Assembly (NCBI RefSeq): GCF_000718095.1
Contig: NZ_JOEI01000010.1
Coordinates: 124,001 to 188,000, forward strand
Length of the DNA: 64,000 nucleotides
From: Streptomyces scopuliridis RB72
GTDB lineage: Bacteria; Actinomycetota; Actinomycetes; Streptomycetales; Streptomycetaceae
Direction of reading: 5' to 3'
The notes beneath the pieces are model-generated. The model saw only the letters and a list, made by a program, of their open reading frames with translations, did not search any database and was not told where the DNA came from. A program made the position numbers and the translations under genes. The first letter of the stretch is position 1. Each line of letters opens with the position of its first letter. Of this stretch, positions 20,334 through 51,762 are shown piece by piece.

Positions 20334-20343
20334 GGGCAGTCCC

Positions 20344-20357: not shown

Positions 20358-20428
20358 GTCCGGTCGGCACCGTAGGGAAGAGGCGTGGAGGTGTCAACGG
20401 CACGGGAGGTAAAGGCAGTTAGTCCGGA

Positions 20429-20446: not shown

Positions 20447-20456
20447 ACCGCTCGGT

Positions 20457-21404: not shown

Positions 21405-21405
21405 G

Positions 21406-22311
21406 TCACTTCTCCCGGCGGCGAAGGGCGGCGTACTGGGCGGCGGAGGCGAGGATGACCAGGGCGAAGAAGATGTAGCTGATCGCCGAGGCGTAGCCGA
21501 GCCGGTAGCCCGTGAAGCCGACGTCGTAGACGTACTCGACGACCGGGCGGGTGGAGTTGTTGGGGCCGCCCTTGGTGATCAGATAGACCTGGTCGAAGAC
21601 CTTCAGCGAGGCCAGGATCTGCAGCACGGTGATGACGACGGTGATCCGGCTGAGCTGGGGCAGCGTGATCGACCACAGGCGCCGCCAGGCCCCGGCGCCG
21701 TCGATGGCGGCCGCCTCGTACAGATGGTCCGGAATGGACTGCAACGCGGCCAGATAGAGCAGGAAGTTGAAGCCGACGGTCCACCACAGCGTGGTCAGGG
21801 CGATCGCCGACATGGCCACCGACTCGTCGCTGAGCCAGGCCACTTGACCGAGTCCGACCGCGTCGAGCAGGTTGTTGTACAGGCCCAGGTCGGGCTGGTA
21901 CAGCCAGATCCACAGCAGGCTGACGACACCGACGGGCAGCAGGTACGGGGCGAAGAACGCCAGCCGCCACACCCACTGGCCGGGCAGACCGGTGTGGACG
22001 AGCAGCGCCATCCCGAGCGCGACCGCGACGAGGGGAACCGTCGACAGGGCGGTGAACCACACGGTGTGGCCCAGGGCGCGCCACATCTCGGCGTCTCCCA
22101 GGGCCTCGGTGAAGTTGTCGAGGCCGATGAAGGAGGGGGCGTGGGCCGACAGGGAGGTGTCGGTCAGGCTCATCCACAGTCCCTGGCCCAGCGGCCACAG
22201 CATGAAGACGGCGAGCAGGACGAGGAAGGGGAGCGCGAAGAGCAGGCCGGGGGAGAGCAGCCGGCGCGCCGACAGGGCCCCGGGGCGGGGTGCTGCGTGG
22301 GGAGAGGACAT
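21406..22311 (-). CDS. Sugar ABC transporter permease, MalF/UgpA-like (CUT1)
   Basis: The protein has 301 residues from ATG 22311, preceded by a full AGGAGG ribosome site. Six membrane helices are visible, the first being LLFALPFLVLLAVFMLWPLG. The coupling loop YEAAAIDGAGAWRRLWSITL is canonical. It forms the channel with the MalG-like permease encoded next. It sits in the LacI-controlled transporter operon. Confidence 0.93.
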   Translation of the reverse strand: MSSPHAAPRPGALSARRLLSPGLLFALPFLVLLAVFMLWPLGQGLWMSLTDTSLSAHAPSFIGLDNFTEALGDAEMWRALGHTVWFTALSTVPLVAVALGMALLVHTGLPGQWVWRLAFFAPYLLPVGVVSLLWIWLYQPDLGLYNNLLDAVGLGQVAWLSDESVAMSAIALTTLWWTVGFNFLLYLAALQSIPDHLYEAAAIDGAGAWRRLWSITLPQLSRITVVITVLQILASLKVFDQVYLITKGGPNNSTRPVVEYVYDVGFTGYRLGYASAISYIFFALVILASAAQYAALRRREK

Positions 22312-22345
22312 CGTTGTGCCTCCTGCGCGGTGGTTCGCAGCCGGG

Positions 22346-23689: not shown

Positions 23690-23768
23690 GTGGCTCCTTT
23701 CCCGCGGGCGGCGGTGCGGAGGGCGGGGCACTGTGGCCGCACCTCGCCGACACCGCCGCACTGCGGTA

Positions 23769-23782
23769 CTACATCGATGTAA
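23769..23782. promoter_or_regulatory. LacI-type operator 2 (transporter operon)
   Basis: CTACATCGATGTAA matches the palindrome TTACATCGATGTAA at 13 of 14 positions. It lies 80 bp upstream of the solute-binding protein start. Confidence 0.82.
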
Positions 23783-23819
23783 ATCATGGACAGGGCAGGC
23801 TGCTTCCGCTCGCGCGGAA

Positions 23820-25661: not shown

Positions 25662-25716
25662 GGTGCTCCTTGCATCGAGAGTGCCGGTCGGTGCGAGGCT
25701 TATGGCACCATGGCGA

Positions 25717-25730
25717 TTACATCGATGTAA
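25717..25730. promoter_or_regulatory. LacI-type operator 3 (GH2 and lacI)
   Basis: TTACATCGATGTAA, a perfect palindrome, lies between the divergent GH2 (start 25661) and lacI (start 25802) genes, so repression and autoregulation can both act from it. Confidence 0.88.
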
Positions 25731-25801
25731 ATACGTCGGCGGAGGATGGTCCGGCCCGAAACCGATTCGTGATGGTCGGTACGATCATGGTCGGCGGAAG
25801 G

Positions 25802-26824
25802 ATGAACACAGTGGCGGCCAGACCGAGGATCAAGGACGTGGCGCGGTACGCCGGGGTCTCTCCCAAGACCGTCTCCAACGTCATCAACGACTTCGAGCAT
25901 GTATCCGAGCAGACCCGCGCCGCCGTCCGCGAGGCGATCGACGCGCTCGGTTACCGGGTCAACATCGCCGGACGGCAGCTGCGCCAGGGCCGCACCGGCA
26001 TGATCACCCTGGCGGTCCCGGAGCTCGACGTCGCCTACTTCTCCGAGCTGGCCAAGCACGTCATGGCCGAGGCCGACCGCCGGGGACGCACCGTCCTCAT
26101 CCACCAGACCGAGGGCGTGCGCGAACGCGAGCTGGCCGCGCTGCACGGCTTCGACACGCAGTTCTCCGACGGCGTCATCCTCAGCCCCCTCTCCCTCCTG
26201 CCCCGGGACCTCACCACCCGCGACCAGCGCCTTCCCGTGGTGCTCCTCGGCGAACGGCCCGCCGAGGGCGGCACCGACCACGTGGGCATCGACAACGTAC
26301 GGGCCGCGCGGGAGGCCACCGAGCATCTGCTGTCCCGGGGGCGCCGCCGTATCGCCGTCATCGGCGGAGCCGTCCGCGGACGCCAGGGCACCGACAGGCT
26401 GCGCACCGACGGCTACCGCCAGGCCCTTGAGGTCGCCGGCCTGCCCTTCGCCCCCGGCCTCGTGGTGCCGGTGGAGGCGTACCACTGGCAGGACGGTGCC
26501 CGCGCCGCGAGCGCACTGCTGGAGAAGGAGCCGCACCCCGACGCCCTGTTGTGCCTGAACGACCACCTCGCCCTGGGCGCGCTGCGGACGCTGTACGAAC
26601 GGGGTCGCTCAGTCCCCGGAGATCTCGACGTGGTCGGCTTCGACGACATCGAGGCCTCGCGGTTCAGCGTGCCCAGCCTGACGACGGTCGCCCCCGACAA
26701 GCCGGACATCGCGAAAGCCGCCGTATCCCTGCTGCTGGAACGCATCGACGAGCCGGACGCGGGATCCCTTCAGGACCATGTGGCCGGGCATCGGCTCATC
26801 GTGCGGGAGAGCAGCGGCGGCTGA
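25802..26824 (+). CDS. LacI-family regulator of the first glycan region
   Basis: The 340-residue protein starts at ATG 25802 behind GGCGGAAGG. The N-terminal helix-turn-helix IKDVARYAGVSPKTVSNVIN and hinge VREAIDALGYRVNIAGRQLR are followed by a periplasmic-binding-like effector domain (VGFDDIEASRFSVPSLTTV, VRESSGG). Three copies of TTACATCGATGTAA, one of them next to its own gene, are the predicted binding sites. It would repress the GH43 pair, the CUT1 transporter, GH2 and itself until a sugar effector binds. It is a close relative of the LacI protein at 49526; the recognition helices differ at SPK versus SIK. Confidence 0.93.
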   Translation: MNTVAARPRIKDVARYAGVSPKTVSNVINDFEHVSEQTRAAVREAIDALGYRVNIAGRQLRQGRTGMITLAVPELDVAYFSELAKHVMAEADRRGRTVLIHQTEGVRERELAALHGFDTQFSDGVILSPLSLLPRDLTTRDQRLPVVLLGERPAEGGTDHVGIDNVRAAREATEHLLSRGRRRIAVIGGAVRGRQGTDRLRTDGYRQALEVAGLPFAPGLVVPVEAYHWQDGARAASALLEKEPHPDALLCLNDHLALGALRTLYERGRSVPGDLDVVGFDDIEASRFSVPSLTTVAPDKPDIAKAAVSLLLERIDEPDAGSLQDHVAGHRLIVRESSGG

Positions 26825-38185: not shown

Positions 38186-38199
38186 TTCCATCGTTGAAA
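38186..38199. promoter_or_regulatory. Candidate hybrid LacI-type operator before the PA14-GH2 gene
   Basis: TTCCATCGTTGAAA matches TTACATCGATGTAA and TTGCAACGTTGCAA at 11 of 14 positions each. The left half resembles the first operator and the right half the second. It lies 114 bp upstream of the TTG start of the GH2 gene. Confidence 0.4.
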
Positions 38200-38312: not shown

Positions 38313-41300
38313 TTGAGACGACAACCACTTCGCCCCCGCACGCTGCTTCGAGCACTCGCGTGTGCCGCCGCGCTGCTGCTTCCCGTGGGCGCCACGCTGG
38401 TCCCGGCCGCCGCTGCCGCTCCGACCGCCGCTGCGACCGTGAACGCCTTCGCGTCCGACGACCCGGCCACCGAGGTGCACGGACTGAAGGGGGAGTACTT
38501 CCGCATGTCCGCGCCGGGGGCCCGCGACTTCGCCGAACTCGGCGGCGTGGCACTGGACCCCGAGATCAACTTCCCTGGTCTCACCGGCACGTTCGAGTCC
38601 ACGACCGGGCGCACCGAGCACACGACGGCCCGCTGGACCGGGCAGATCGAAGCCCCCGCGACCGGTGACTACACCTTCTCCGCGATCGGCGACAACGGGT
38701 TCAGGCTCTTCCTCGACGGCGCTGTGGTCATCGACCACTGGCAGCCCGACTGGGACGTCGAGCAGCACAGCGAGCCGATCGCGCTGACCGCCGGCGAACC
38801 CCACGAGTTCCGGCTGGAGATGTTCCAGGACACCGGCGGCGCCAACATGTTCCTGCGCTGGGCGAGCCAGGACCTGAAGAAGCGGATCGTGCCGGAGGAG
38901 GCGTTCACACCGCCCGCCGACTTCGAGGTCTACCCGGTCGCGCTGAGCGTGGCCGAGGACGGCAGGCGGCTCCAGGCGACGTTCAACGACAAGGTCGAGA
39001 ACACCGGCGGCGTGAAGGACCATCTGAAGATCGAGGCCGACACCTCACCGATGCCGGTGACGTCGGTGGCCAGGGCGTCGGACAACCCCAAGGCGCTGAT
39101 CGTGACGCTGGCGGCCCCCGTCCAGAAGGGCCAGCAGGTCCGCGTCGCGTACGACGGTGCGGGCGGCCTGCGGGCAGGCGGGGAAACCGTCCCCGAGATC
39201 AGCCGCACCGCCAAGAACCGGTCCACACACCGGCTCACCACCACATGGGGCGACAAGCTGGACCGTAACCACCCGCTGCCGGAGTACCCCCGGCCGCAGC
39301 AGGTGCGCGATCAGTGGAAGAACCTCAACGGCCCCTGGGAGTTCGCCGGAGCGGCAGCGGGCGAGCAGCCGGCCTTCGGCAAGCGGCTCGGCGAACGGAT
39401 CACCGTGCCGTTCCCGGTGGAGTCCCAGCTCTCGGGTCTTGAGCGGCACGAGGATCACATGTTCTACCGCAAGCTCGTCACCGTGCCGGAGAACTGGTCC
39501 ATCGGCAAGGGCCGCGACGGCGGCAAGCGGCTGAGGCTCAACTTCGACGCCGTCGACTACCAGGCCGCCGTCTGGGTCAACGGCAAGAAGGTCGCCGAAC
39601 ACACCGGCGGCTACACCGGGTTCACCGCCGACATCACGGACGCGGTCAAGGGCACCGGCCCGCAGGAGATCATCGTCGCGGTCACCGATGTCACCGGACC
39701 GAATCAGCCGAAGGGCAAGCAGTCCACCCACCCGGGCGGGATCGTCTACACCCCGTCCTCCGGAATCTGGCAGACCGTCTGGATGGAGCCGGTCGCGCCC
39801 GCCGCGGTGGACTCCCTGACCACCACCCCGGACATCGGCAAAGGCACCCTCGCGCTGACCGTCAACTCCGCCGACGCCTCGCCCGGCGCCCGGATCAAGG
39901 CCGTCGCCCGCGACACGAAGGGGAAGGTCGTCGGTACGGTCACCGGTCCGGCCAATCGCGCGCTGACCCTGCCGGTCAGGAACCCGCGCCTCTGGTCGCC
40001 GGACGACCCGTATCTCTACGACCTCCAGGTGAGCCTGACGGACGGCCGGTCCACGGACCGCGTCGACAGCTACTTCGGGATGCGTTCCCTCCGTGTCGAG
40101 AAGGTCGGCGGCTACCAGAAGCTCGTACTCAACGGGAAGCCGTTCTTCTCGCTCGCCATGCTGGACCAGGGCTTCTGGCCCGACGGGCTGTACACCCAGC
40201 CCAGTGACGCCGCGCTCACCTTCGACCTGAAGGCGCAGAAGGACCTCGGCTTCAACGCGGTGCGCAAGCACATCAAGGTGGAGTCGCCCCGCTGGTACTA
40301 CCACGCCGACCGGCTCGGTCTGCTGGTGTGGCAGGACTTCGTCTCCAGCGACATCACCGGCGATCAGGGCAAGCAGGCGTTCCTCGCGCAGGGCAAGGAG
40401 ATGATGACGCAGCTGCACAACGCGCCCTCGATCGGCGGCTGGATCGTCTTCAACGAGGGCTGGGGCGAGTGGGACCGGGTCGAGACCGGGAAGATCACCG
40501 AGACCGTACAGGCCGATGACCCGTCGCGTGTCGTCAACGCCCACAGCGGGGTCAACTGCTGCTCGTCCAAGGGCGACTCGGGCAAGGGCGACATCATCGA
40601 CCACCACGACTACCTGAACAACGACGCGCCGTTCCCCGACCACCGCGCCGCGATGGACGGTGAGCACGGCGGCTTCACGCTCCGTACCGCCGGACACATG
40701 TGGCCGGGTGCTCCCGCGGCGATCTACAGCGGGGTCGCGGACAAGGCCGCGCTGACGGCGAAGTACGTCGAGAACACCCGAACGTACTATCTCGCCGCGG
40801 CCGGAGCCGAACTGTCCGGCTCCGTCTACACCCAGGTCAGCGATCTGGAGAACGAGCTCAACGGGCTCTGGACATACGACCGTCGTGAGATCAAGGTCGA
40901 CCCGAAGAAGGTGCGGCAGATCAATCAGCAGGTCATCGCGGCCGGCGCGGCGGCCGGCGACCGCGACCGGCTGAAGGGCGGCGCCGCCTGGTCGCTGGAC
41001 GAGAACAAGGGCACGACGGCCCGGGACAGCGGTCCCAACAAGGCGTCCCTGACCCTCGGTGAGGGCACCACCTGGGCGCCGGGCGTACGGGGCTCCGCCC
41101 TCCGGTTCAACGGCCAGGGCCAGTACGCCGAGACCCGCGGCCCGGTGGTCGACACCACCGAGAACTACTCGGTGTCCGCGTGGGCCACGCTCGACTCGCT
41201 CCCCGGCAACTACGCCACGGTGGTCAGCCAGGACGGCCGGCGGACGGAGAATCCCTTCTATCTCCAGTACGGCCAGGGCGCGTTCGCCTTCAGCACCCCG

Positions 41301-41588
41301 GGCGGTCACCGCGCCCGTCTGGAGATGAAGCCCGAGACCGGAAAGTGGTACCACCTCGTCGGTGTGCGGGAGGGAGACGACCTGAAGCTGTATGTCGACG
41401 GCACGCTCGCGGCGACAGCCCCGGCCGGGCCCGCCGATGTCAGCACCGGACCGCTCTCCGTCGGCCGTGCCAAGTGGAACGGTGGGAACGTCGACTTCTG
41501 GACGGGCTCCGTCGACCAGGTGAGGGTGTACGACAAGGCGCTCACCGCCGCGGAGGTGAGCGCGCTCCACGACGGCGAACAGCCGTAA
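38313..41588 (+). CDS. Secreted PA14-GH2-LamG glycosidase
   Basis: The protein has 1091 residues from TTG 38313, chosen because a clean signal peptide (residues 1-36) starts there. Domains in order: PA14 (57-198; GEYFRMS, GDNGFRLFLDGAVVIDHWQP), a linker sandwich (200-305), GH2 sugar-binding and Ig domains (315-620), TIM barrel (620-885), and LamG/concanavalin-like lectin (about 889-1091). Acid/base is Glu715 (FNEGWG) and nucleophile Glu784 (GEHGG). The family includes beta-galactosidases, and PA14-bearing Streptomyces enzymes specific for galactofuranose have been reported to my recollection. With the galactofuranose-type importer nearby, a beta-galactofuranosidase is the leading idea. Confidence 0.88.
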   Translation: MRRQPLRPRTLLRALACAAALLLPVGATLVPAAAAAPTAAATVNAFASDDPATEVHGLKGEYFRMSAPGARDFAELGGVALDPEINFPGLTGTFESTTGRTEHTTARWTGQIEAPATGDYTFSAIGDNGFRLFLDGAVVIDHWQPDWDVEQHSEPIALTAGEPHEFRLEMFQDTGGANMFLRWASQDLKKRIVPEEAFTPPADFEVYPVALSVAEDGRRLQATFNDKVENTGGVKDHLKIEADTSPMPVTSVARASDNPKALIVTLAAPVQKGQQVRVAYDGAGGLRAGGETVPEISRTAKNRSTHRLTTTWGDKLDRNHPLPEYPRPQQVRDQWKNLNGPWEFAGAAAGEQPAFGKRLGERITVPFPVESQLSGLERHEDHMFYRKLVTVPENWSIGKGRDGGKRLRLNFDAVDYQAAVWVNGKKVAEHTGGYTGFTADITDAVKGTGPQEIIVAVTDVTGPNQPKGKQSTHPGGIVYTPSSGIWQTVWMEPVAPAAVDSLTTTPDIGKGTLALTVNSADASPGARIKAVARDTKGKVVGTVTGPANRALTLPVRNPRLWSPDDPYLYDLQVSLTDGRSTDRVDSYFGMRSLRVEKVGGYQKLVLNGKPFFSLAMLDQGFWPDGLYTQPSDAALTFDLKAQKDLGFNAVRKHIKVESPRWYYHADRLGLLVWQDFVSSDITGDQGKQAFLAQGKEMMTQLHNAPSIGGWIVFNEGWGEWDRVETGKITETVQADDPSRVVNAHSGVNCCSSKGDSGKGDIIDHHDYLNNDAPFPDHRAAMDGEHGGFTLRTAGHMWPGAPAAIYSGVADKAALTAKYVENTRTYYLAAAGAELSGSVYTQVSDLENELNGLWTYDRREIKVDPKKVRQINQQVIAAGAAAGDRDRLKGGAAWSLDENKGTTARDSGPNKASLTLGEGTTWAPGVRGSALRFNGQGQYAETRGPVVDTTENYSVSAWATLDSLPGNYATVVSQDGRRTENPFYLQYGQGAFAFSTPGGHRARLEMKPETGKWYHLVGVREGDDLKLYVDGTLAATAPAGPADVSTGPLSVGRAKWNGGNVDFWTGSVDQVRVYDKALTAAEVSALHDGEQP

Positions 41589-41596
41589 CGCACGAC

Positions 41597-41631
41597 GGCC
41601 CGGCAGCGACGGAGCGAGTCGCTGCCGGGCC
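41597..41631. terminator. Strong terminator between the two secreted GH2 genes
   Basis: GGCCCGGCAGCGAC at 41597-41610 pairs perfectly with its complement at 41618-41631 around a 7-base loop. The two GH2 genes converge here, so it can work in both directions. Confidence 0.85.
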
Positions 41632-41671
41632 GGGCCGCCCCCGTGGCCCTCACGCCGCACGGAGGCTCAGA

Positions 41672-44017
41672 TCAGGGCGCCCACGGAGCCGCCACCGCCC
41701 AGGTGGTGTCCTCGGTGAACGTGGCCGGGTTGTCCCACGCGTGACCGCCGCCGGGAGTGGCCAGCCACACGTCGGAGTTGATGTGACGGATGTAGCTGCC
41801 GGGGAGGTTGGCGCTGGACAGGCGCACGCCGCCCGTGCCGGCGACCGTACAGAAGGTGGCGTCGGCCTTGAAGAGTGCCGAGCCGTCGTCGGCGTCCCGC
41901 CGGACCCGGAAGTCCCGGTGCCGCAGATACTCGCCGGGGTAGTTGCGGGACTCGAACGAATAGCAGTTGCCGTTGGCGAGACCGGTGACGACCTTCCAGG
42001 TGGCGTCGTTCTTGAGGAGTCCGTCGCTGCCGCTGTCGACGACCGCGGTGTGGGCCAACTGCTCGAAGTGGCGCAGGTACTTGTTGGTGTGGCCCGGGGT
42101 GGTGACCCGCAGGGAGATGTACTGCCCGGTGGGCAGGGTGACCGGTGGGGCGGGGGTACGGGAGGCCTGGATCAGCGCCTGGTTCGCCGCTCTGACCCGT
42201 GCGGCGTCGGCCTTGACCACCTGGCGGTCGTAGGTGAGCAGCCCGTTCACCTCGTTCTCGACGTCCGTGATCTCCGTGTAGACGGAGGCGGAGAGCCCCG
42301 CGGGCAGCTGACCGACACGGATGCTGTCGAGCAGACCGACGAGGCGGTCGTTGAGCGCGGCGAGGCTCGGCTGATCCTCGTAACTGAAGCCGCCGCCCGG
42401 ATACCACTCGTGCCCCGGCACCTTGTACCCGAGCCCGCCGAACTCGCCGAGGACGGCGGCCCGGGTGGCGGTGGGGGCGGTGTTTCCGGGACCGACGTAG
42501 ATGTGGTTGTCGACCACATCCCCATTGCCCCCGTCGACCGAGCCGCAGCAGTTGACCCCGCTCATGTTGTTCACCAGACGGGACGGGTCGTACGCCTTCA
42601 CCTCGTCGGCGATCCTGGCCTGGTCGTACTGTCCCCAGCCCTCGTTCTGGTTGACCCACATGACCAGGGACGGCGAGCTGCGGTGCTGATCGATGACGGC
42701 GTGGTACTCGGCCTCCCACTGGGTGCGGGCCGCCGCGTCGGGGGTCTTCGCGGTGTCCATCGCCGGCATGTCCTGCCACACCAGGAGCCCGAGCCGGTCC
42801 GCCCAGTAGAACCAGCGCTGGGACTCGACCTTGATGTGTTTGCGCACCATGTTGAAGCCCAGGTCCTTGTGTGCCTGAAGGTCCGACCTCAGCGCGGCGT
42901 CGGTCGGCGCGGTGTAGATGCCGTCCGGCCAGTAGCCCTGGTCCAGGGTGCCGGTCTGGAAGACGAACTGTCCGTTCAGCACGGGGCGCAGGACATCGCC
43001 GACCTTCGACGTGGCGATCGACCGCATCCCCGCGTAGCTGCCGACCGCGTCGACGACCGTGGCACCGTCGAGCAGTTCGGCTCGTACGTCGTAGAGGAAC
43101 GGGTCCTCCGGGCTCCACAGGCGGGGGTTCGCGAGGCGTACGGAGATCTCCGCGCCCGCGGCGCCGGTCGCCGTAGCGACCACGGTCCCGCCGCTGGAGA
43201 CCGTCACCCGGACACTGCGGCCGCCCGCCGCGGCGGCCCGCGCCGTCACCCGGAGCGTGCTGTCGCCCAGGTCCGGCGTCATGTCGAGACGGGTGAGGTG
43301 CGACGCGGCGACCGGTTCCAGCCAGACGGTCTGCCAGATGCCGGACGCCGCGGTGTAGAAGATGCCCCCGCCCGGATGGGGCGTCACCTCGTTGATCCGC
43401 TGCTTGCCGACCGCCTGGCCGCCGGTCTGTGTCGGGTCGTGGACGGAGACCACGACGGTGTTCGTACCGCCGTTCAACTGGGGCGTGATGTCGTACGAGA
43501 ACGCGTCGTACCCGCCCTTGTGCGCCCCGACCTGGGTGCCGTTGACCCAGACGGTGGTCTGCCAGTCGGAGGCGCCGAAGTGGAGCTGGACCCGGCGGCC
43601 GGTCCAGTTCGCGGGGACCGTGAAGGCGCGCTTGTACCAGAGCTTGTCGTTCTCGGTGATCCTGCGCTGGATGCCGGAGAGCGCGGACTCGGCGACGAAC
43701 GGAACCCGGATGCGGTCGGGGAACGCCGACGGCTGCCCGGCGTCACGGCCGGTCACCGCGAAGTCCCAGATGCCGTTGAGATTGGTCCAGTCGGGGCGGG
43801 TGAGCTGGGGGCGCGGATACTCGGGCAGCGGATTGTCGACGGGCACCTGGGCGGTCCAGGGCGTGGTCATCGGAGCGGGCTTCGGCGTCCAGGGCGCCGC
43901 CTGGGCGGGGGTCGTCGCGCCCCCTACCAGCGCGGTCGCCACCAGCGTCAGCATGCCGGTCGCGGCTGTCAGACGTCTCCACCACGGCCGGCGGCCGGGG
44001 TTGGACACACGCTTCAT
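41672..44017 (-). CDS. Secreted GH2 glycosidase with C-terminal AbfB (CBM42) domain
   Basis: The 781-residue protein starts at ATG 44017 behind GGAGGAG. Signal peptide 1-40 ends in TTPAQAAPW. Domains: GH2 sugar-binding (62-240), Ig-like (245-340), TIM barrel (345-620) with acid/base Glu459 (NQNEGWG) and nucleophile Glu525 (LGEFGG), then an arabinofuranose-binding AbfB trefoil (632-781; SFESRNYPGEYLRHRDFRVR). The binding module points to arabinofuranose-decorated polymers. It is closely related to the PA14-GH2 protein and the cytoplasmic GH2. An operator-type palindrome lies about 170 bp upstream. Confidence 0.9.
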   Translation of the reverse strand: MKRVSNPGRRPWWRRLTAATGMLTLVATALVGGATTPAQAAPWTPKPAPMTTPWTAQVPVDNPLPEYPRPQLTRPDWTNLNGIWDFAVTGRDAGQPSAFPDRIRVPFVAESALSGIQRRITENDKLWYKRAFTVPANWTGRRVQLHFGASDWQTTVWVNGTQVGAHKGGYDAFSYDITPQLNGGTNTVVVSVHDPTQTGGQAVGKQRINEVTPHPGGGIFYTAASGIWQTVWLEPVAASHLTRLDMTPDLGDSTLRVTARAAAAGGRSVRVTVSSGGTVVATATGAAGAEISVRLANPRLWSPEDPFLYDVRAELLDGATVVDAVGSYAGMRSIATSKVGDVLRPVLNGQFVFQTGTLDQGYWPDGIYTAPTDAALRSDLQAHKDLGFNMVRKHIKVESQRWFYWADRLGLLVWQDMPAMDTAKTPDAAARTQWEAEYHAVIDQHRSSPSLVMWVNQNEGWGQYDQARIADEVKAYDPSRLVNNMSGVNCCGSVDGGNGDVVDNHIYVGPGNTAPTATRAAVLGEFGGLGYKVPGHEWYPGGGFSYEDQPSLAALNDRLVGLLDSIRVGQLPAGLSASVYTEITDVENEVNGLLTYDRQVVKADAARVRAANQALIQASRTPAPPVTLPTGQYISLRVTTPGHTNKYLRHFEQLAHTAVVDSGSDGLLKNDATWKVVTGLANGNCYSFESRNYPGEYLRHRDFRVRRDADDGSALFKADATFCTVAGTGGVRLSSANLPGSYIRHINSDVWLATPGGGHAWDNPATFTEDTTWAVAAPWAP

Positions 44018-44097
44018 CGGTACGTCTCCTCCACGGATGACGCTCCCCGCGACCGGACCGGCGTGGGGGAGCGGTGCGGATGGGGTCGTGCGGCGGT

Positions 44098-44175
44098 CGT
44101 GCGGGTGATGAGGCGGCTCGTGGTACGGGTGATGAGGCGGCTCGTGGTGCGGGTGATGATGCGGGCTCGTGGTCC
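44098..44175. repeat. Tandem 24-bp repeats in the GH2-AbfB leader
   Basis: Three imperfect units built on CGTGGT(A/G)CGGGTGATGAGG lie between the operator at 44188 and the GH2 start, inside the expected untranslated leader. They read as His/Pro repeats on the minus strand, but that frame has no start with a ribosome site. Confidence 0.65.
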
Positions 44176-44187
44176 GGGGCAACTCGC

Positions 44188-44201
44188 TTGCAACGTTGCA
44201 A
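44188..44201. promoter_or_regulatory. LacI-type operator (second type), GH2-AbfB side
   Basis: TTGCAACGTTGCAA is a perfect 14-bp palindrome. It is predicted to be bound by the LacI protein at 49526. It differs from the first-region operator at positions 3, 6, 9 and 12 only. Confidence 0.82.
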
Positions 44202-44344
44202 AATTGACGGTCGGCCGTATGACAGCATGCCGTCGAACGAGTGTCCAGGGCTGTCACGGAACCCGGCGCCCGCCGCCCGCCCGGCCGGGACGCCCCGGGC
44301 GCCGCGCGCGGCCGACATATTTTGGAAACGCATCGACAACTCTC

Positions 44345-44372
44345 TTGCCGCCTGCGGCGCAGCGCCTATATA
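44345..44372 (+). promoter_or_regulatory. Promoter of the importer operon
   Basis: TTGCCG at 44345-44350 and TATATA at 44367-44372 form -35/-10 elements with a 16-bp spacer. The operator-like site at 44368 overlaps the -10 element, the classic place for repression. Confidence 0.55.
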
Positions 44373-44381
44373 ACGTTGTAA
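44368..44381. promoter_or_regulatory. LacI-type operator (second type), importer side
   Basis: ATATAACGTTGTAA keeps the AACGTT core and the right half GTTG-AA of the palindrome TTGCAACGTTGCAA. It overlaps the presumed -10 box of the importer promoter and lies 180 bp from the perfect copy. Confidence 0.6.
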
Positions 44382-44573
44382 ACCGAGCCGCCGACAGGCA
44401 GCGCGGACTCTCACGACCGCCCTCGTCACCGCTCGTGGCAGGGCCGTGAGGATGCGGCGTCATCAAGCCCTGACGCGGCTGATGACCGTTCAGCGCGCCC
44501 CGTCCATGCCCTGCCCCATGCCCCGACCGCACCCGACCGGAGTGCCGTCATCCCGCCAAGGAGCGTCCCGCGC

Positions 44574-45659
44574 ATGATCAATCAGCGTCGATCCCGTACT
44601 CTCACCGCGGCCTGCGTGTTCGCCGCGACCGCTGCGCTGGCCGTCTCCGGCTGCTCCAAGTCGGAGACCACGGACAGCGCGGGCGGTGACAGCGGCCAGG
44701 GAGCCCAGGCGGCCAAGACCCCCGAGGCCACGTCCGGTTCGGGCTGCTCGCTGCAGACCTACGGCGCGCCGAAGCTGGACCTGAAGGACGCGGTGGTCGG
44801 CTTCTCCCAGTCGGAGAAGGAGGCCAACCCCTTCCGTATCGCCGAGACCCAGTCCATCAAGGACGAGGCGGCCAAGGTCGGCGTCAAGAAGCTGCTCACC
44901 ACCAACGCGCAGTCGCAGCTCTCCAAGCAGATCAGCGACATCCAGGACATGCTGTCCCAGGGCGCCCAGTTCCTCATCGTCGCGCCGCTGAACTCGGACG
45001 GGCTGGAGCCGGCGCTCAAGGCGGCCGCGGCGAAGAAGGTGCCCGTCCTCACCATCGACCGCAAGGTCAACTCCACCGCCTGCAAAGACTATGTCGCCTT
45101 CCTCGGCTCCGACTTCGTGGAGCAGGGCAAGCGCGCGGCCGACGCGATGATCAAGACGACCGGCGGCAGCGGCAAGGTCGCCATCCTGCTCGGCGCCTCC
45201 GGCAACAACGTCACCACGGACCGCACCAAGGGCTTCGTCGATCAGCTGAAGGCCAAGGCGCCCGGCCTCGAAATCGTCGCCCAGCAGACCGGCGAGTTCG
45301 CCCGGGACAAGGGTCAGCAGGTGATGGAGCAGCTCATCCAGTCCAAGCCCGACATCACCGCCGTCTACGCGGAGAACGACGAGATGGGTCTCGGCGCGGT
45401 CACCGCGCTCAAGGCGGCCGGGAAGAAGCCCGGCAAGGACGTCAAGATCGTCTCGGTCGACGGCACCCGCAACGCCGTTCAGGCGCTGGTCGACGGGGAG
45501 TACAACGCGGTCATCGAGTCGAACCCGCGCTTCGGGCCGCTCGCCTTCGCCACCGCGCAGAAGTTCTACGCGGGCGAGGAGATTCCGGAGAACGTGATCA
45601 TCGCGGACCGCGCGTACGACGAGTCCAACGCCAAGGAGTCCCTCGGCGGGGCGTTCTGA
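44574..45659 (+). CDS. YtfQ-like sugar-binding lipoprotein of a CUT2 importer
   Basis: The 361-residue lipoprotein has a signal with lipobox VSGC (Cys near residue 27). The mature protein resembles the galactofuranose-binding protein YtfQ: AVVGFSQSEKEANPFRIAET, QLSKQISDIQDMLSQGAQFL, IVAPLNSDGLEPALKAA, VPVLTIDRKV and AVYAENDEMGLGAVTALKAA. Such proteins capture monosaccharides; YtfQ prefers galactofuranose, while relatives bind L-arabinose or other furanoses. It is the first gene of a complete four-gene importer, followed by a hairpin that may raise its level over the later genes. The operator at 44368 should control it. Confidence 0.88.
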   Translation: MINQRRSRTLTAACVFAATAALAVSGCSKSETTDSAGGDSGQGAQAAKTPEATSGSGCSLQTYGAPKLDLKDAVVGFSQSEKEANPFRIAETQSIKDEAAKVGVKKLLTTNAQSQLSKQISDIQDMLSQGAQFLIVAPLNSDGLEPALKAAAAKKVPVLTIDRKVNSTACKDYVAFLGSDFVEQGKRAADAMIKTTGGSGKVAILLGASGNNVTTDRTKGFVDQLKAKAPGLEIVAQQTGEFARDKGQQVMEQLIQSKPDITAVYAENDEMGLGAVTALKAAGKKPGKDVKIVSVDGTRNAVQALVDGEYNAVIESNPRFGPLAFATAQKFYAGEEIPENVIIADRAYDESNAKESLGGAF

Positions 45660-45667
45660 CCCCTCCG

Positions 45668-45704
45668 CCGCGCGGCGAAGGGCAGCGCCCCCTTCGCCGC
45701 GCGG
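45668..45704 (+). terminator. Intra-operon hairpin after the binding-protein gene
   Basis: CCGCGCGGCGAAGGG at 45668-45682 pairs perfectly with its complement at 45690-45704 (15 bp, 7-base loop), between the lipoprotein gene and the ATPase gene. It likely acts as a partial terminator or an RNA-stabilising element that gives excess binding protein. Confidence 0.7.
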
Positions 45705-45772
45705 CCAGGTCCTGTCCGGCCACGGCGGTCCCGGGCCCACCCCCTTGGAACAGCGGAAGGCCAAGAAGACCC

Positions 45773-47383
45773 ATGGCACCACCCGAAGCAGCAGCTCAGG
45801 CGCCGGCGGAGAGCACCCCGCCGGCGGCCGGCACCGTCCTCGAAGCCCGCGCGGTGAGCAAGCGGTTCCCGGGCGTCGTCGCGCTCGACAACGTCTCCTT
45901 CTCCCTGCGCGCGGGCGAGACCCATGCCCTGGTGGGCGAGAACGGCGCCGGGAAGTCCACCCTCATCAAGGTGCTGACCGGTGTGTACCGGCCCGACGAG
46001 GGCGAGGTACGGATGACCGGCCAACAGGTGCGGTTCGCCCGGCCGTTCGAAGCGCAGCAGGCGGGCATCTCCACCATCTACCAGGAGGTGAACCTCGTCC
46101 CGCTGATGAGCGTGGCGCGCAATATCTTCCTCGGCAGGGAGCCCAAGAACCGCTTCGGCCTCATCGACTTCGGCCGGATGCACCGCGAGACCACGGAACT
46201 GCTCGACGGGTTCGGTGTCCATGTCGACCCGCGCCGGCCACTGCACACCCTGGGCATCGGCACGCAGCAGATGGTCGCGCTGGCGCGCGCCGTGTCCGTC
46301 AACGCGCGGGTGGTCGTCATGGACGAACCCACCTCCTCCCTGGAACCGCGCGAGGTGGAGACCCTCTTCCGGGTCATCGCCGGCCTGCGCGGCCAGGGCA
46401 TCGCCGTGATCTACGTCAGTCACCGCATGGACGAGCTCTACCGGATCTGCGACCGCGTCACCGTCCTGCGCGACGGCCGCCACATCCACACCGGCGACCT
46501 CGCGGAGCTGAACCGGATGCGGCTCGTGTCGATGATGCTCGGCCGCGACATGGCCGAGGTCCGGCGCAGCGGAGTGACCGGCTTCGCCGCCGGGGGACAT
46601 GACGCGGAGCGCACGCCCGTACTCACCGCCAGTGGCCTGACCCGCCGTCACCAGCTCCAGGACGTCTCCCTGTCGCTGTACGGCGGGGAGGTGCTCGGCC
46701 TCGGCGGCCTCCTCGGCTCCGGGCGCAGCGAGACGGCGAAGGCCCTGGCGGGCGCGTTGAGCCTGGACGGGGGCGAACTCACCGTCGGTGGCCGCAGACT
46801 GCGCAGGCTCACCTCCGCGGGCGCGATCCGGGCGGGCATCAGCCTGCTGCCCGAGGACCGCAAGGCGGAGGGAATCATCCCCGGCCTGTCGGTGCGCGAG
46901 AACATCGTGCTCGCCGCGATGCCGCGTCTCTCCCGCGCAGGAGTGGTCTCGCGGCGCAAGCAGGACCGTATCGTCGAGGTCTTCATGAAGCGGCTGCGGA
47001 TCAAGGCCGCCGGTCCCGAACAGAAGGTCGGGGAACTCTCCGGCGGCAACCAGCAGAAGGTGCTGCTGGCCCGCTGGCTCTGTCTGGAACCCAAGGTCCT
47101 CCTGCTCGACGAACCGACGCGGGGCATCGACGTCGGCGCCAAGGCCGAGGTCCAGGGCCTCATCGACGAACTCGCCGGCGAGGGCCTGGCCGTGCTGCTC
47201 ATCTCCTCGGACATCGAGGAACTCATCGAGGGCGCCGACCGGATCGTCGTCCTGCGCGGCGGGGCCGTCGCGGGCGAACTGTCCGGCGACGACGTGGGCG
47301 AGAGCCAACTGCTCGAAGTGCTCGCCGACCACGCACCGGTGCCCGAAGGGAAGGCCCCGGCCGCACAGGAGGACCCCCGATGA
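45773..47383 (+). CDS. YtfR-like sugar ABC transporter ATPase (two cassettes)
   Basis: The 536-residue protein carries two fused nucleotide-binding domains, typical for CUT2 monosaccharide importers. Walker A of the first is GENGAGKST and the signature region is LGIGTQQMVALARA. The second cassette has the usual degenerate GLLGSGRSE, signature LSGGNQQKVLLARW and Walker B LLLDEPTRGIDVGAKAE. It drives uptake through the two permeases encoded next. The stop overlaps the next ATG (ATGA), so translation is coupled. No regulator domain is attached. Confidence 0.94.
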   Translation: MAPPEAAAQAPAESTPPAAGTVLEARAVSKRFPGVVALDNVSFSLRAGETHALVGENGAGKSTLIKVLTGVYRPDEGEVRMTGQQVRFARPFEAQQAGISTIYQEVNLVPLMSVARNIFLGREPKNRFGLIDFGRMHRETTELLDGFGVHVDPRRPLHTLGIGTQQMVALARAVSVNARVVVMDEPTSSLEPREVETLFRVIAGLRGQGIAVIYVSHRMDELYRICDRVTVLRDGRHIHTGDLAELNRMRLVSMMLGRDMAEVRRSGVTGFAAGGHDAERTPVLTASGLTRRHQLQDVSLSLYGGEVLGLGGLLGSGRSETAKALAGALSLDGGELTVGGRRLRRLTSAGAIRAGISLLPEDRKAEGIIPGLSVRENIVLAAMPRLSRAGVVSRRKQDRIVEVFMKRLRIKAAGPEQKVGELSGGNQQKVLLARWLCLEPKVLLLDEPTRGIDVGAKAEVQGLIDELAGEGLAVLLISSDIEELIEGADRIVVLRGGAVAGELSGDDVGESQLLEVLADHAPVPEGKAPAAQEDPR

Positions 47384-48366
47384 CCCAGGCCACTCTCACC
47401 CCCGCCCCCGCCCCCGCCCCCGCGCGCCCGCTGGCCCGGCTCCGTGACCCCGCCTGGTACCAGGAGTACGGCGTGTACGCGGCCGTGGCGGTCTTGCTGG
47501 TCTTCAACGCGCTGTTCACCGAGCACTTCATGACCGCCGACAATCTGCGCACCCAGCTCGTCCAGGTCGCCCCCATCGTCATCGTGGCGCTGGGCATGGC
47601 CTTGGTCATCGGCACCGAGGGCATCGATCTGTCGGTCGGCTCGACCATGGCACTCGCCGCCGCCCTGCTCCCGCTCTATCTCGGATACGGGCTGGTGCCG
47701 GGGCTCGTCGTGGCCCTGCTCGCGGGAGCCGTCGTCGGAGCCGTCAACGGCACCCTGGTCTCATTGATCGGGCTGCAGCCCATCGTCGCCACCCTGGCCC
47801 TGTTCGTCGGCGGCCGGGGCATCGCCCTGGTCATGGCCGACGGCCAGCTCAAGCAGATCATCAACCCCGACATCCTCGCGCTCGGCACCGGATCTTTCCT
47901 CGGTGTCCCGCTGGTGGTGCTGATCGCCGGGGTGCTCGCGGTCGCCGTCGCCTTCCTGGTGCGGCGTACCACCTTCGGCCGTCAGATCGTCGCCGTCGGA
48001 GGCAACCGGTCGGCCGCCTCCCTGGCGGGACTGCCGGTCACCCGCGTTCTGATGGGGGTGTACATACTCTGCGGAGTGCTGGCCGCCCTGGCGGGGATCC
48101 TCGCCACGGCCAGGCTGACGGCGAGCGACCCCTCCTCGCTCGGCACCCTCATGGAGCTCTCCGCCATCACGGCGGTCGTGGTCGGCGGAACCCCGCTCAA
48201 CGGCGGCTCCATCCGGGTCCTGGGCACCGTCGCCGGCGCCCTGCTGATGCAGCTGCTGCGCGCCACCCTCGTCAAGCACGACCTGCCCGACTCCACCGCA
48301 CAGATCGCCCAGGCGGCCATCATCATCGCCGCCGTCTACGTCGCCCGGGAGCGTCGGTCCCGATGA
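47380..48366 (+). CDS. YtfT-like sugar ABC transporter permease (CUT2)
   Basis: The protein has 328 residues and eight to ten hydrophobic helices. VIVALGMALVIGTEGIDLSV is the CUT2 permease motif, and GLPVTRVLMGVYILCGVLAA and AVVVGGTPLNGGSIRV are other hallmarks. It overlaps both neighbours by ATGA. CUT2 importers normally have a single permease gene; two different ones in series, as here, are characteristic of the YtfQRT-YjfF galactofuranose system and its relatives. Confidence 0.92.
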   Translation: MTQATLTPAPAPAPARPLARLRDPAWYQEYGVYAAVAVLLVFNALFTEHFMTADNLRTQLVQVAPIVIVALGMALVIGTEGIDLSVGSTMALAAALLPLYLGYGLVPGLVVALLAGAVVGAVNGTLVSLIGLQPIVATLALFVGGRGIALVMADGQLKQIINPDILALGTGSFLGVPLVVLIAGVLAVAVAFLVRRTTFGRQIVAVGGNRSAASLAGLPVTRVLMGVYILCGVLAALAGILATARLTASDPSSLGTLMELSAITAVVVGGTPLNGGSIRVLGTVAGALLMQLLRATLVKHDLPDSTAQIAQAAIIIAAVYVARERRSR

Positions 48367-49424
48367 ACGAAACCACACCCGCTCCGGTCGCTGCCGTCCC
48401 GGCGCCGAAGAAGACTCCCGCACCGGCCGGCGGCGGGGCTCCCCGCGAGGAACCCGCCGCCGAGACGCCCCTCAAGCAGCGTCTCGCCGAGCTCGTGCAG
48501 CGTCAGGGCGTGCTCGCGGTCCTTCTCGCGGTCATCCTCGTCGCCTCGTTCGTCTACCCGACGTTCGCCACCCTCGACAACGCCCGCGGCGTGACCGTCC
48601 AGGCGTCGTTCCTCGCCGTGGTGGCCCTCGGCATGACGCTGGTCATCATCACCGGAGGCATCGACCTGTCGGTCGGATCGGTGTTCGCGCTGGGAGGTGT
48701 GCTCGCGGCCTGGGCTTCACAATGGGGCTTCTTCACGGCGCTCCTGGTGCCCCTCGTGGTGTGCGGGGCGATCGGGCTGCTGAACGGTTTCCTCATCGCC
48801 CGCGCCGGCATGGCCCCCTTCATCGTCACGCTCGCCACGCTGCTCGCGGCCCGGGGTCTGCTCCTCGCCCTCACGGACGAGGGCGCCACCACCTATCTGG
48901 TGCCCAAGGACTCCGTGTTCGCCGAGCTCGGGCAGGGCAGCGTCCTGGGCTTCGGTTATCCCCTCCTGATCGCCCTGGTGCTGTTCGGGGCGGGCGGAGT
49001 GCTGCTGCAACGGACCTCTTTCGGGCAGTCGCTGTTCGCGGTCGGCGGGAGCAGCGACGCGGCCGGCCTGATGGGGCTGCCCGTCGCCCGTACCAAGATC
49101 CTGGTCTACACGCTCAGCGGGCTGCTGGCGGGACTCGCCGGCGCGCTGAACGCGGCCAGGCTGTCCTCGGGCGTCACCATCGTCGGCGTCGGCATGGAGC
49201 TCGACGCCATCTCCGCCGTCGTCATCGGCGGCACGCTCCTCATCGGTGGCGCCGGCTCGGTCAGCGGCACGCTCTGGGGCGTCCTGCTGCTGGCCGTCAT
49301 CCAGAACCTGATCAACCAGATCGGCTCGCTCAACTCCTCGTACCAGTCGGTGGTCAGCGGCGGCTTCCTTATCGTGGTCGTCGTGGCACAGCGCTATCTG
49401 GCGCGCAGCCGCAGAACCACCTGA
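48363..49424 (+). CDS. YjfF-like sugar ABC transporter permease (CUT2)
   Basis: The protein has 353 residues. It opens with about 40 Pro/Ala/Glu-rich cytoplasmic residues that most CUT2 permeases lack, then has the membrane core: LGMTLVIITGGIDLSVGSVF, ALTDEGATTYL, GLPVARTKILVYTLSGLLAG, AVVIGGTLLIGGAGSV. It is the second permease of the importer and probably forms a heterodimer with the first. The lacI gene follows after 101 bp. Confidence 0.92.
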   Translation: MNETTPAPVAAVPAPKKTPAPAGGGAPREEPAAETPLKQRLAELVQRQGVLAVLLAVILVASFVYPTFATLDNARGVTVQASFLAVVALGMTLVIITGGIDLSVGSVFALGGVLAAWASQWGFFTALLVPLVVCGAIGLLNGFLIARAGMAPFIVTLATLLAARGLLLALTDEGATTYLVPKDSVFAELGQGSVLGFGYPLLIALVLFGAGGVLLQRTSFGQSLFAVGGSSDAAGLMGLPVARTKILVYTLSGLLAGLAGALNAARLSSGVTIVGVGMELDAISAVVIGGTLLIGGAGSVSGTLWGVLLLAVIQNLINQIGSLNSSYQSVVSGGFLIVVVVAQRYLARSRRTT

Positions 49425-49525
49425 ACCAGGCCGGGTTCCGCGTGGCCGTCCGGCCACCGGGACCCGGCCACCCCAGGGCCCCGGACCTCACCGGGGCCGG
49501 GTTCCCTGTCGAGTCAAGGAGTGCC

Positions 49526-50569
49526 GTGGGCGTCAGCCTCAAGGACGTTGCGCAACGGGCGGGCGTGTCCATCAAGACCGTGTCGAACGTGGTCAACAAC
49601 TATCAGCACGTCACCCCCCAGATGCGGGCCAAGGTGCAGCGGGCCATCGACGAACTCGGCTACCGGCCCAATCTCACCGCGCGCCATCTGCGCAAGGGGC
49701 GCACCGGCATCATCGCCCTGGCCGTACCCGAGTTCGGCAACCCGTACTTCGCCGAACTGGCCGGCGCGGTCATCGACGCGGCGGCCAGGCACGACTACAC
49801 CGTGCTGGTCGACCACACCGCCGGCCTGCGCGAGAACGAGCTCCTGGTCTGCCAGGGCTTCCGCTCGCATGTGATCGACGGCGTCATCCTCAGCCCGATC
49901 CACCTGGAGACCGAGGACCTCATGGCGCGCAGCGAGACCGCGCCCCTGGTCCTGCTGGGGGAGCGCGAGTACGAGGCCCCGTACGACCACATCGCCATCG
50001 ACAACGTCACGGCGGCCCGCGCGGCCGTACGCCACCTCCTCGACCGCGGCCACCGCCGTATCGCCTTCCTCGGCTCACGCACCGGCCGCGAACGCCAGCC
50101 GGCCCATCTGCGGCTGCGCGGCTGGCGCGAGGAACTGGTGGCCGCGGGCATCGCGCCCGACGAGAGCCTGGTGATCGTCACCGACGGCTACGGACGGGAG
50201 GACGGCGCCGCCGCCATGGCCGCGCTTCTCGACCGGGGGGAGCGACCGGACGCCGTCTTCGCCTACAACGACCTCATCGCCATCGGCGCGATGCGCACGC
50301 TCACCGAACGCGGTCTGCGCATCCCTGACGATGTCGCCGTCGTCGGCTTCGACGACATCGAGGAGAGCCGGTACGGGGCCACCACGCTCACCACCATCGC
50401 CCCGGACAAGGAGGCCATCGCCCGGCTCGCCGTCGACAGTCTCGTCGAACGGCTCTCGGGCGAGCCGGTGGCCGAACCCCGCAGGCCCCGCCCCGGCTAC
50501 CGCCTGGTCGTCCGCGAATCCACCGCGTCCCGAAGGACCCCGGACCCGGGGCAGCCGGGACACGCCTGA
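49526..50569 (+). CDS. LacI-family regulator of the second glycan region
   Basis: The 347-residue protein starts at GTG 49526 with AAGGAG 7 bases upstream. DNA-binding part: LKDVAQRAGVSIKTVSNVVN and the hinge VQRAIDELGYRPNLTARHLR. Effector domain: IALAVPEFGNPYFAELAGAV, DHIAIDNVTAARAAVRHLL, VVGFDDIEESRYGATTLTTI. Same signature and similar length as the LacI protein at 25802, so the two are close paralogues. Predicted sites are TTGCAACGTTGCAA and its relatives at 44188 and 44368. It probably controls both secreted GH2 genes, the importer and galM, releasing them on binding a sugar. Confidence 0.93.
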   Translation: MGVSLKDVAQRAGVSIKTVSNVVNNYQHVTPQMRAKVQRAIDELGYRPNLTARHLRKGRTGIIALAVPEFGNPYFAELAGAVIDAAARHDYTVLVDHTAGLRENELLVCQGFRSHVIDGVILSPIHLETEDLMARSETAPLVLLGEREYEAPYDHIAIDNVTAARAAVRHLLDRGHRRIAFLGSRTGRERQPAHLRLRGWREELVAAGIAPDESLVIVTDGYGREDGAAAMAALLDRGERPDAVFAYNDLIAIGAMRTLTERGLRIPDDVAVVGFDDIEESRYGATTLTTIAPDKEAIARLAVDSLVERLSGEPVAEPRRPRPGYRLVVRESTASRRTPDPGQPGHA

Positions 50570-50661
50570 AGCGCGGCGGCGGGACCCCGGGACGCATCCG
50601 CACGCGCCGCCCCTGGCAGCCCACGCTCCTCCCCGCCATCCGTTCGTCGCAAGGATCCCTG

Positions 50662-51762
50662 ATGCCCACCCCCACCGCGCACAGCAAGCCGTTCGGCACC
50701 GCTCCCGGGCGGAAGGAGGTCGATCTCTGGACGCTCGACTCCGGATCCGGAGTCCGGGCCGAGATCCTCACCTACGGCGGCATCCTGCACCGGCTCATGG
50801 TGCCCGACACCGCGGGAGACACCGCGTCGGTCGTCCGCTCGCTCGCCTCCCTCGACGACTACACGGGGAAGAACCCCTACTTCGGGGCCCTCATCGGCCG
50901 TTACGCGAACCGCATCGCGCACGGCCGCTTCACCCTGGACGGCGCGGTGCACCACATCCCCGCCAACGACCGCGGCCACGCGCTGCACGGCGGTCCCGAC
51001 GGCTTCCACACCAGAGTGTGGAAGGCCGCGGCCCACCGTACGGACCGCACCGCGGCGCTCCGGCTCACCCTGCACAGCGCCGATGGCGACATGGGATTCC
51101 CCGGCGCGCTCGACGTCACCGTGACGTACACGCTCGACACCGAAGGCACCCTCGCCCTCGACTACACCGCGACCACCGACCGCCCCACGGTCGTCAACCT
51201 CACCAACCACGCCTACTTCGACCTCACCGGCGGGGGCGGCATCCTCGGCCATACCCTCCAGGTGGACGCCGACGGGTATCTGCCCGTCGACGGAGGGGGC
51301 ATCCCGCGCGGCCCCGCCGTACCCGTCCGGCACACCCCCTTCGACCTCACCGTTCCGCACCCGCTGGGGGACCGGATCGGCCTGCCCGACGAACAGCTCA
51401 GTGCGGCCGGGGGTTTCGACCACTGCTGGGTCCTGCGGGACGCGGAACCGGGACGCGCCGCAGACCCGCGCCGAGCCGCCCGTCTCGCCGCCCCCGGCGA
51501 GGCGAGGGTGATGGAGGTATGGACCACGGAACCCGGCATCCAGGTCTACACCGCCAACCAGCTCGACGGCTCCCTCACCGACCCCGCCGGCCGGCCGCAC
51601 GAACGGCACGGCGCCGTCTGCCTGGAGACCCAGCACCTGCCCGACTCGCCCAACCGCCCGGGTCATCCCTCCACGCTGCTGCGCCCGGATGAAGTGGCCT
51701 CCAGCCGGACCGAGTTGAGGTTCCCACACCTCAGGCGGGGACGGGACGCCACCGGCGGCTGA
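50662..51762 (+). CDS. galM: Aldose 1-epimerase (mutarotase)
   Basis: The 366-residue protein would interconvert the anomers of galactose and related aldoses. Signature parts: NPYFGALIGRYANRIAHGRF, HALHGGPDGFHTRVW with the first catalytic His, VVNLTNHAYFDLTG with the second His, and the base Glu near LETQHLPDSPN. There is no signal peptide, so it acts in the cytoplasm. It follows the lacI gene by 92 bp and completes the sugar-import unit: imported galactose has to be in the anomer used by the Leloir enzymes, which are not present here. Confidence 0.93.
   Translation: MPTPTAHSKPFGTAPGRKEVDLWTLDSGSGVRAEILTYGGILHRLMVPDTAGDTASVVRSLASLDDYTGKNPYFGALIGRYANRIAHGRFTLDGAVHHIPANDRGHALHGGPDGFHTRVWKAAAHRTDRTAALRLTLHSADGDMGFPGALDVTVTYTLDTEGTLALDYTATTDRPTVVNLTNHAYFDLTGGGGILGHTLQVDADGYLPVDGGGIPRGPAVPVRHTPFDLTVPHPLGDRIGLPDEQLSAAGGFDHCWVLRDAEPGRAADPRRAARLAAPGEARVMEVWTTEPGIQVYTANQLDGSLTDPAGRPHERHGAVCLETQHLPDSPNRPGHPSTLLRPDEVASSRTELRFPHLRRGRDATGG

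Follow-up and report, generated by a model that had tools for sequence, protein, structure and literature searches.

Galactofuranose is absent from mammals and present in moulds and several bacteria, and its use as food by microbes is, to our knowledge, still poorly understood. The closest described systems are of two kinds: secreted beta-D-galactofuranosidases of Streptomyces on one side, and CUT2 sugar importers, such as YtfQRT-YjfF of Escherichia coli and GafABCD (Shewanella ANA-3, MSMEG_1712), on the other. Here we describe a locus of Streptomyces scopuliridis RB72 that has counterparts of both. The window, i.e., the whole stretch of DNA that was analysed, has 64,000 nucleotides (positions 124001–188000 of contig C10, within an 8.24-Mb genome). 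Pfam domains assigned to the eight genes at 38313–51762 agree with the preliminary description of this DNA, which had placed there two secreted GH2 proteins, a CUT2 importer with two permeases, a LacI gene and galM. We think, with a probability of roughly 70%, that the locus is a foraging system for D-galactofuranose; our confidence is higher for the enzymes and lower for the ring form in which the sugar would be taken up.

Two types of galactofuranosidase, carrying AbfB or PA14 domains, are said to occur in Actinobacteria (PMC5391426), and the accessible part of another study presents GH2_18 and GH2_19 as the furanosidase group within GH2 (PMC12243196). ORF1110 of Streptomyces sp. JHA19 is active on p-nitrophenyl-beta-D-galactofuranoside and on Aspergillus galactomannan and inactive on arabinofuranoside and on the tested pyranosides, as far as the available part of the report goes (PMC4560423), and its AbfB domain is dispensable (PMC5391426; PMC4560423, same part). 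A PA14-type relative from JHA26 likewise acts on Aspergillus galactomannan (PMC5391426). Both GH2 proteins of the window have their best Protein Data Bank (PDB) match in the beta-D-galactofuranosidase of JHA19 (9J6M/9J6N). The AbfB-type enzyme (41672–44017, minus strand; GH2 and AbfB domains), an orthologue-like counterpart of ORF1110 by homology, reaches 1088 bits with 467 of 587 catalytic-domain residues identical (79.6%); the PA14-type enzyme (38313–41588, plus strand; PA14, GH2 and Laminin_G_3 domains), a candidate beta-D-galactofuranosidase, reaches 495 bits and 263 of 566 (46.5%). In the mutagenesis of ORF1110 by Matsunaga and colleagues, which covered 18 acidic residues, the loss of D423 or E464 was the most drastic, according to the accessible part of their article (PMC4560423). 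All 17 placeable ones, D423, E464 and E530 included, are kept in both window enzymes, under an inferred numbering offset of 23 by which 17 of the 18 assayed residues fall on the expected letter and one cannot be placed. Judged by sequence, both proteins group with the published Streptomyces beta-D-galactofuranosidases and are enzymes of known kinds. The genome also has a further PA14-GH2 gene (contig C1, 129835–132454; L099). Divergent from it is a LacI gene that shares 68% identity with that of the window; an operator-like site lies between the two, and there is no importer alongside.

The association of these enzymes with the importer was followed in 150 Streptomyces genomes, which are related to each other and give counts that are not independent. 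The binding protein occurs in 47 of them, as does permease B. At E 1e-60, 77 genomes have a GH2 match, weaker paralogues of 38–46% included: 46 of the 47 with the importer and 31 of the 103 without it. The grouping of GH2 and importer is more than chance, since a galactofuranosidase-type GH2 gene lies within 8 kb of the importer in 42 of the 47 importer genomes. The gene orders vary: besides that of the window, there are loci with the PA14-GH2 gene divergent from LacI-importer and others arranged as LacI-importer-GH2. Among the best 80 of 230 relatives in the wider actinobacteria, 62 of the 80 named loci carry a GH2 gene of the window kind, and 7 of 9 do so in Micromonosporaceae. If enzymes and importer were unrelated neighbours brought together by chance, such GH2 genes would be expected without an importer, as in the 31 genomes above, and importers without a nearby GH2 gene, as in 5 of 47 (10.7 kb away in G066, contig end inside the PA14 domain in G028, other contigs in G075 and G119, none in G117). 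We give this explanation hardly any credence, because the synteny already contradicts it, in several gene orders and also in Micromonosporaceae, and because operator-like sites are shared between the genes.

The importer consists of a substrate-binding lipoprotein (44574–45659; Peripla_BP_4), an ATPase (45773–47383; ABC_tran, closest to the NCBIfam model YtfR and below its cut-off), permease A (47380–48366) and permease B (48363–49424; both BPD_transp_2), all on the plus strand. Among solved binding proteins, the nearest are MSMEG_1712 (210 bits), YtfQ and Shewanella GafA (165 bits each) and the ribose-type 2IOY (161.5 bits). In a tree of 42 rows, which comes with a program warning about long branches, the window protein falls together with its relatives and YtfQ/GafA (100/100), while RbsB and the other E. 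coli CUT2 binding proteins stand outside this group; within it, YtfQ and the GafA type make up a cluster of 13 (100/99), and the window's own lineage is not gathered into a single clade (88/51, 82/62). The preliminary description took a two-permease CUT2 importer as the hallmark of the galactofuranose system. The feature is not unique, as E. coli LsrC/LsrD illustrates, and the kinship itself stands, with permease A joining YtfT and permease B joining YjfF (100/99 each) in a tree of 40 permeases. Of 12 pocket positions, some named in the accessible part of PMC10191376 and others picked from conserved motifs, the window protein equals MSMEG_1712/GafA at 10 and RbsB at 8. The equivalents of GafA Glu28, Arg32 and Asp105 (MSMEG numbering) are kept in the window lineage, with Glu in 19 of 20 rows, and the Arg-Asp pair is credited in that part of the study with making room for the furanose ring (PMC10191376). 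A third group of binding proteins lies near GafA on a long branch (L289, L300, L301); these have the Trp of the GafA type, lack the loop Gln/Gly and show Trp for the pocket Phe.

Which sugar is carried can be approached through the neighbouring catabolic genes. Across the phylum, 296 genomes gave 20 window-type matches (E 1e-45) and 23 MSMEG-type matches, in lists that overlap because the lineages cross-match, and gal and ara genes were mapped in 20 fetched stretches. Of seven window-type loci outside the class (L292–L298), three have galT/galK adjoining the importer: L292 reads binding protein-ATPase-permeases-galT-galE-galK, with all genes running in the same direction and a PA14/LamG GH2 gene upstream, L296 has galT and galK beside the importer, and L298 has galT beside it and galK on the other strand. 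The gal genes of these three loci pass NCBIfam or TIGR cut-offs. At the GafA-type loci (L283–L288, L290, L291), araA is found in 4 of 8, three of them with araB and araD as well; L286 has galT and galK too, but behind a different CUT2 importer. The two importer types coexist in one genome (G087), in different locations. In 97 Streptomyces stretches, a search at E 1e-8 gave no match to AraA, AraB, AraD, GalT or GalK, and only one GalE match, of 27%; in the genome of RB72, galT-galE-galK lie on contig C7. An arabinose locus was rejected on this account, since the same search that finds araA/B/D at 4 of 8 GafA-type loci finds none beside the Streptomyces importers. The 2023 study, in the part available, reports that GafABCD lacked a direct link to D-galactose catabolic genes (PMC10191376); unlike GafABCD, the window-type lineage does show such a link. 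The preliminary description had left the choice between galactofuranose and arabinofuranose open. D-Galactofuranose is now favoured, because Leloir genes adjoin the window-type importer outside the class and araA/B/D adjoin the GafA type.

Besides the five genomes without a nearby GH2 gene, several observations weigh against our reading. No galTEK is present in the Streptomyces loci themselves, which have at most galM, and no gal gene was found in 4 of the 7 loci outside the class, three of these stretches being 10 kb or shorter. At three scanned loci outside or near Streptomyces proper (L218, L226 and L239), the neighbour is a GH127-type beta-L-arabinofuranosidase-family protein and not a GH2 enzyme. 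As for the importer, RbsC outscores YtfT/YjfF in BLAST comparisons with each of the two permeases, the binding protein is almost as similar to RbsB (35.7% over 255 residues, 138 bits) as to YtfQ (35.8% over 288, 167 bits), and the ribose-type PDB chain stands at 161.5 bits versus 164.9 for YtfQ. All four importer proteins fall below the NCBIfam equivalog cut-off of their own YtfQRT-YjfF model (YtfQ 202 bits for a cut-off of 510, YtfR 569 for 850, YtfT 173 for 535, YjfF 217 for 363). Finally, the conserved Trp that stands above the ring in the GafA pocket is Phe in the window protein, with a one-residue insertion: Pro-Phe stands where GafA has Gly-Trp, in a loop that reads EKEANPFR in the window, GSE-SGWR in YtfQ and TLN-NPFF in RbsB. 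The Trp is present in YtfQ, MSMEG_1712 and the GafA-type rows, and the Phe in 20 of 20 readable rows of the window lineage. Strict membership in YtfQRT-YjfF was rejected for the scores below the curated cut-offs and the Phe at this position; as far as sequence comparison can tell, the importer stands beside YtfQRT-YjfF/GafABCD as a sister lineage and is not a member.

These same features could also fit an importer that has lost its furanose specificity and takes up galactopyranose, or another pyranose or pentose, after mutarotation, with Phe for Trp in all readable rows of the lineage, an RbsB-like NPF loop and a similarity to RbsB almost equal to that to YtfQ. The pocket, nearer to GafA than to RbsB in the comparison above, and the retained Arg-Asp pair argue the other way, and we consider this alternative quite unlikely. 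A general furanose importer is an unlikely alternative of another kind: like MSMEG_1712, it would import L-arabinofuranose no less readily than D-galactofuranose, and the locus would serve mixed plant and fungal furanose polymers. It would account for the GH127-family neighbours, for AbfB domains, which are typical of arabinofuranosidases, and for Glu28, Arg32 and Asp105, which are common to GafA proteins that bind both sugars according to the accessible part of PMC10191376. Set against it are the lack of arabinofuranosidase activity in the close homologue ORF1110, as reported in the available part of PMC4560423, with its dispensable AbfB domain, the araA/B/D genes present at 4 of 8 GafA-type loci and in none of the 97 Streptomyces stretches, and the Leloir genes and galM that accompany the window-type importer. 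At L218, L226 and L239, the same importer and LacI gene adjoin the GH127-family gene (PF07944), whose product has ricin-type lectin domains; L228 and L232 have open reading frames (ORFs) of similar size to these genes.

The D-galactofuranose reading gains from sites that connect the enzymes with the importer. A palindrome, TTNCAACGTTGNAA, precedes both GH2 genes and the importer, and we predict that it is bound by the LacI-family protein of the locus (49526–50569, plus strand, inside an ORF of 48722–50569). One predicted operator, TTCCATCGTTGAAA, with one mismatch, stands before the PA14-type GH2 gene (38186–38199) and in the same place in relatives. Another, TTGCAACGTTGCAA (44188–44201), is a perfect palindrome between the AbfB-type GH2 gene and the importer and the sole exact match in the genome. 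Three more sites have one mismatch: that before the PA14-type GH2 gene, that between the further PA14-GH2 gene of contig C1 and its LacI gene, and one at window position 60157, which is probably due to chance. Thus, three of the four best sites in the genome are at galactofuranosidase genes; with the pattern reversed as a control, there was a single such match. The 97 fetched stretches, which were chosen around the module, are mutually related and include two that overlap, have 79 sites with no more than one mismatch, and 72 of these fall in the 6.5% of bases that lie upstream of module genes. Of eight control palindromes, seven yielded 0 to 3 matches, and the eighth, the near variant TTNCATCGATGNAA, yielded 34.

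The mean number of sites with no more than one mismatch per genome among the 150 was 3.38 with the importer and 0.55 without it, compared with 0.70 and 0.49 for the control (p-value 3e-17, which ignores the relatedness of the genomes), and at least one site occurs in 44 of 47 versus 42 of 103 genomes. AbfB-GH2 genes that are not near the importer are accompanied by a site with at most two mismatches in 6 of 7 importer genomes and in 0 of 4 importer-less genomes. Two findings count against a strict tie between operator and importer: several importer-less genomes have a variant, for instance TGACAACGTTGTCA, at their PA14-GH2 genes, and a site with one mismatch occurs in L121. At three mismatches, the pattern is weakly enriched in the window (9 versus 4.0 expected; 1 of 100 shuffles as high). 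The DNA-binding helix of the regulator is SIKTVSNVVNNY, or nearly so, in the compared Streptomyces LacI proteins of the group; four Micromonosporaceae proteins have a SLATVSNVVNGY-like helix, and their loci are without the site. In other loci (L042, L044, L045, L057, L060 and others), a second LacI gene, 46–49% identical and preceded by TTGCAACGTTGCAA, lies between the GH2 genes, and it is absent from the window. Three operator-like sites are also clustered away from the importer in two genomes (G032:C131:6529–6723 and G123:C1:383101–383264).

Two sites recur before the importer. In the 360-bp divergent stretch of the window, the second predicted operator, ATATAACGTTGTAA (44368–44381), is 180 bp from the first, i.e., about 17 helical turns away. 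Among 68 distinct intervals, the spacing is 168–169 bp in 18, 178–180 bp in 45 and 191 bp in one, and 46, 122, 155 and 166 bp occur once each. With these four odd-spaced rows left out, a tree built from the binding-protein and ATPase genes requires at least six switches from one of the three main classes to another. Conservation is poor in the middle of the interval, and the indels differ in place. Steps of about 11 bp would leave the two sites facing the same side of the helix, which a repression loop requires, and the paired sites probably form such a loop. The periodicity score of the spacing does not by itself fix one period, since all periods between 10 and 12 score high. A promoter scan at the importer-proximal site found no consensus sigma-70 promoter; a conserved TTGCCG-18-TATAAC is visible there by eye, and the TATAAC inside ATATAACGTTGTAA may be the -10 element of the importer promoter.

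The predicted operators also guided the gene calls. For the PA14-type GH2 gene, start 38313 (TTG, followed by a signal-peptide-like stretch) was preferred to the ORF start at 38157 because of the site at 38186–38199. The start of the AbfB-type gene is probably 44017 (MKRVSN..., residue 81 of an ORF that opens at 44257), chosen because the predicted operator lies upstream. The LacI gene begins with GTG at 49526, preceded by AAGGAG, and the binding protein carries a lipobox-like motif, LAVSGC. The galM product (50662–51762, plus strand; Aldose_epim) passes the cut-off of PRK11055 (275 bits versus 240) and lies below that of TIGR02636 (291 versus 398). The ATPase gene and both permease genes overlap or nearly abut. 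A single operon was rejected, the AbfB-type gene being on the minus strand and divergent from the importer, so that there are at least three transcription units. A second sugar locus of the window (18864–26824) comprises GH43, two CUT1 permeases, a binding protein, GH2 and a LacI gene. Its GH2 protein has no evident export signal and is 46% identical to the AbfB-type enzyme over part of its length, and near-identical palindromes are found there, TTACATCGATGTAA at 20344 and 25717 and CTACATCGATGTAA at 23769.

Putting these elements together, we propose that the two secreted enzymes, acting as exo-beta-D-galactofuranosidases like their assayed homologues, would free D-galactose, still as a furanose, from galactofuranose polymers such as fungal galactomannan. 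The lipoprotein-dependent importer would take it up, plausibly still as furanose, and ring opening together with GalM would then yield the pyranose for the Leloir enzymes, which are encoded elsewhere in the genome. The LacI protein would repress both enzyme genes and the importer through the conserved TTNCAACGTTGNAA, with a loop between the two sites before the importer, and the genes would be induced together. Enzyme homology, permease phylogeny, synteny and the shared operator-like sites thus back the general proposal of the preliminary description, i.e., furanosidases and a furanose-type importer under their own LacI, for polymer cutting and monosaccharide import. A bolder version is a tentative one, which we hold more apt to be wrong than right: enzymes and importer would have evolved as a unit that captures D-galactose as furanose before it mutarotates to the pyranose that competitors use, with a Phe-type importer lineage for D-galactose, a Trp-type one tied to L-arabinose, and a looping LacI that responds to galactofuranose on helically phased operators.

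The two types of enzyme and their occurrence side by side in one strain are already known, and so, separately, are the furanose importers. The combination had been called little described in the preliminary description; this does not hold for the enzymes, as both GH2 domain types and an adjacent second secreted GH2 are in print (PMC5391426; PMC4560423, accessible part). The literature search, in which most papers were judged by their listing alone, returned none that joins a galactofuranosidase to an importer or unites such enzymes with an importer and a regulator, and neither a galactose-linked furanose importer lineage nor the TTNCAACGTTGNAA operator was found. New here are thus the enzyme-importer-regulator union, the galactose-linked importer lineage, the palindrome and the paired sites stepped by about 11 bp. 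The locus and its relatives supply the link between a furanose importer and D-galactose genes that the GafABCD study, in the part available, did not see (PMC10191376), and furanose importers would split into galactose-linked and arabinose-linked lineages. Sites, proteins and sugars are now named for direct test. In our opinion, a natural furanose-specific regulator and binding protein might also serve in biosensors for mould glycans.

In comparison with the known systems, the window enzymes share with the GH2_18-type galactofuranosidases (JHA19 ORF1110 and JHA26 ORF0643, the latter likened by description only) the catalytic domain, the AbfB or PA14 accessory types and secretion. In JHA19, as in the window, a second secreted GH2 gene is adjacent, according to the accessible part of PMC4560423. 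The PA14-type window enzyme also has a LamG domain, and the window differs in that both enzyme types are joined in one locus by an importer, a LacI gene and galM. With the ribose importer RbsABC, the window importer has in common the CUT2 family and the NPF loop of the binding protein; it differs in having two permease genes where RbsABC has one (rbsC), RbsB has Phe at the position of GafA's Arg and Asn for Glu28, and the tree sets RbsABC outside. With YtfQRT-YjfF and GafABCD, it shares the order binding protein-ATPase-permease-permease, the YtfT and YjfF kinship of its permeases and most of the compared pocket. It departs from them in the Phe for Trp, the one-residue insertion and the scores under all four NCBIfam cut-offs, and in having galactofuranosidase and gal genes, not ara genes, as the neighbours of its type.

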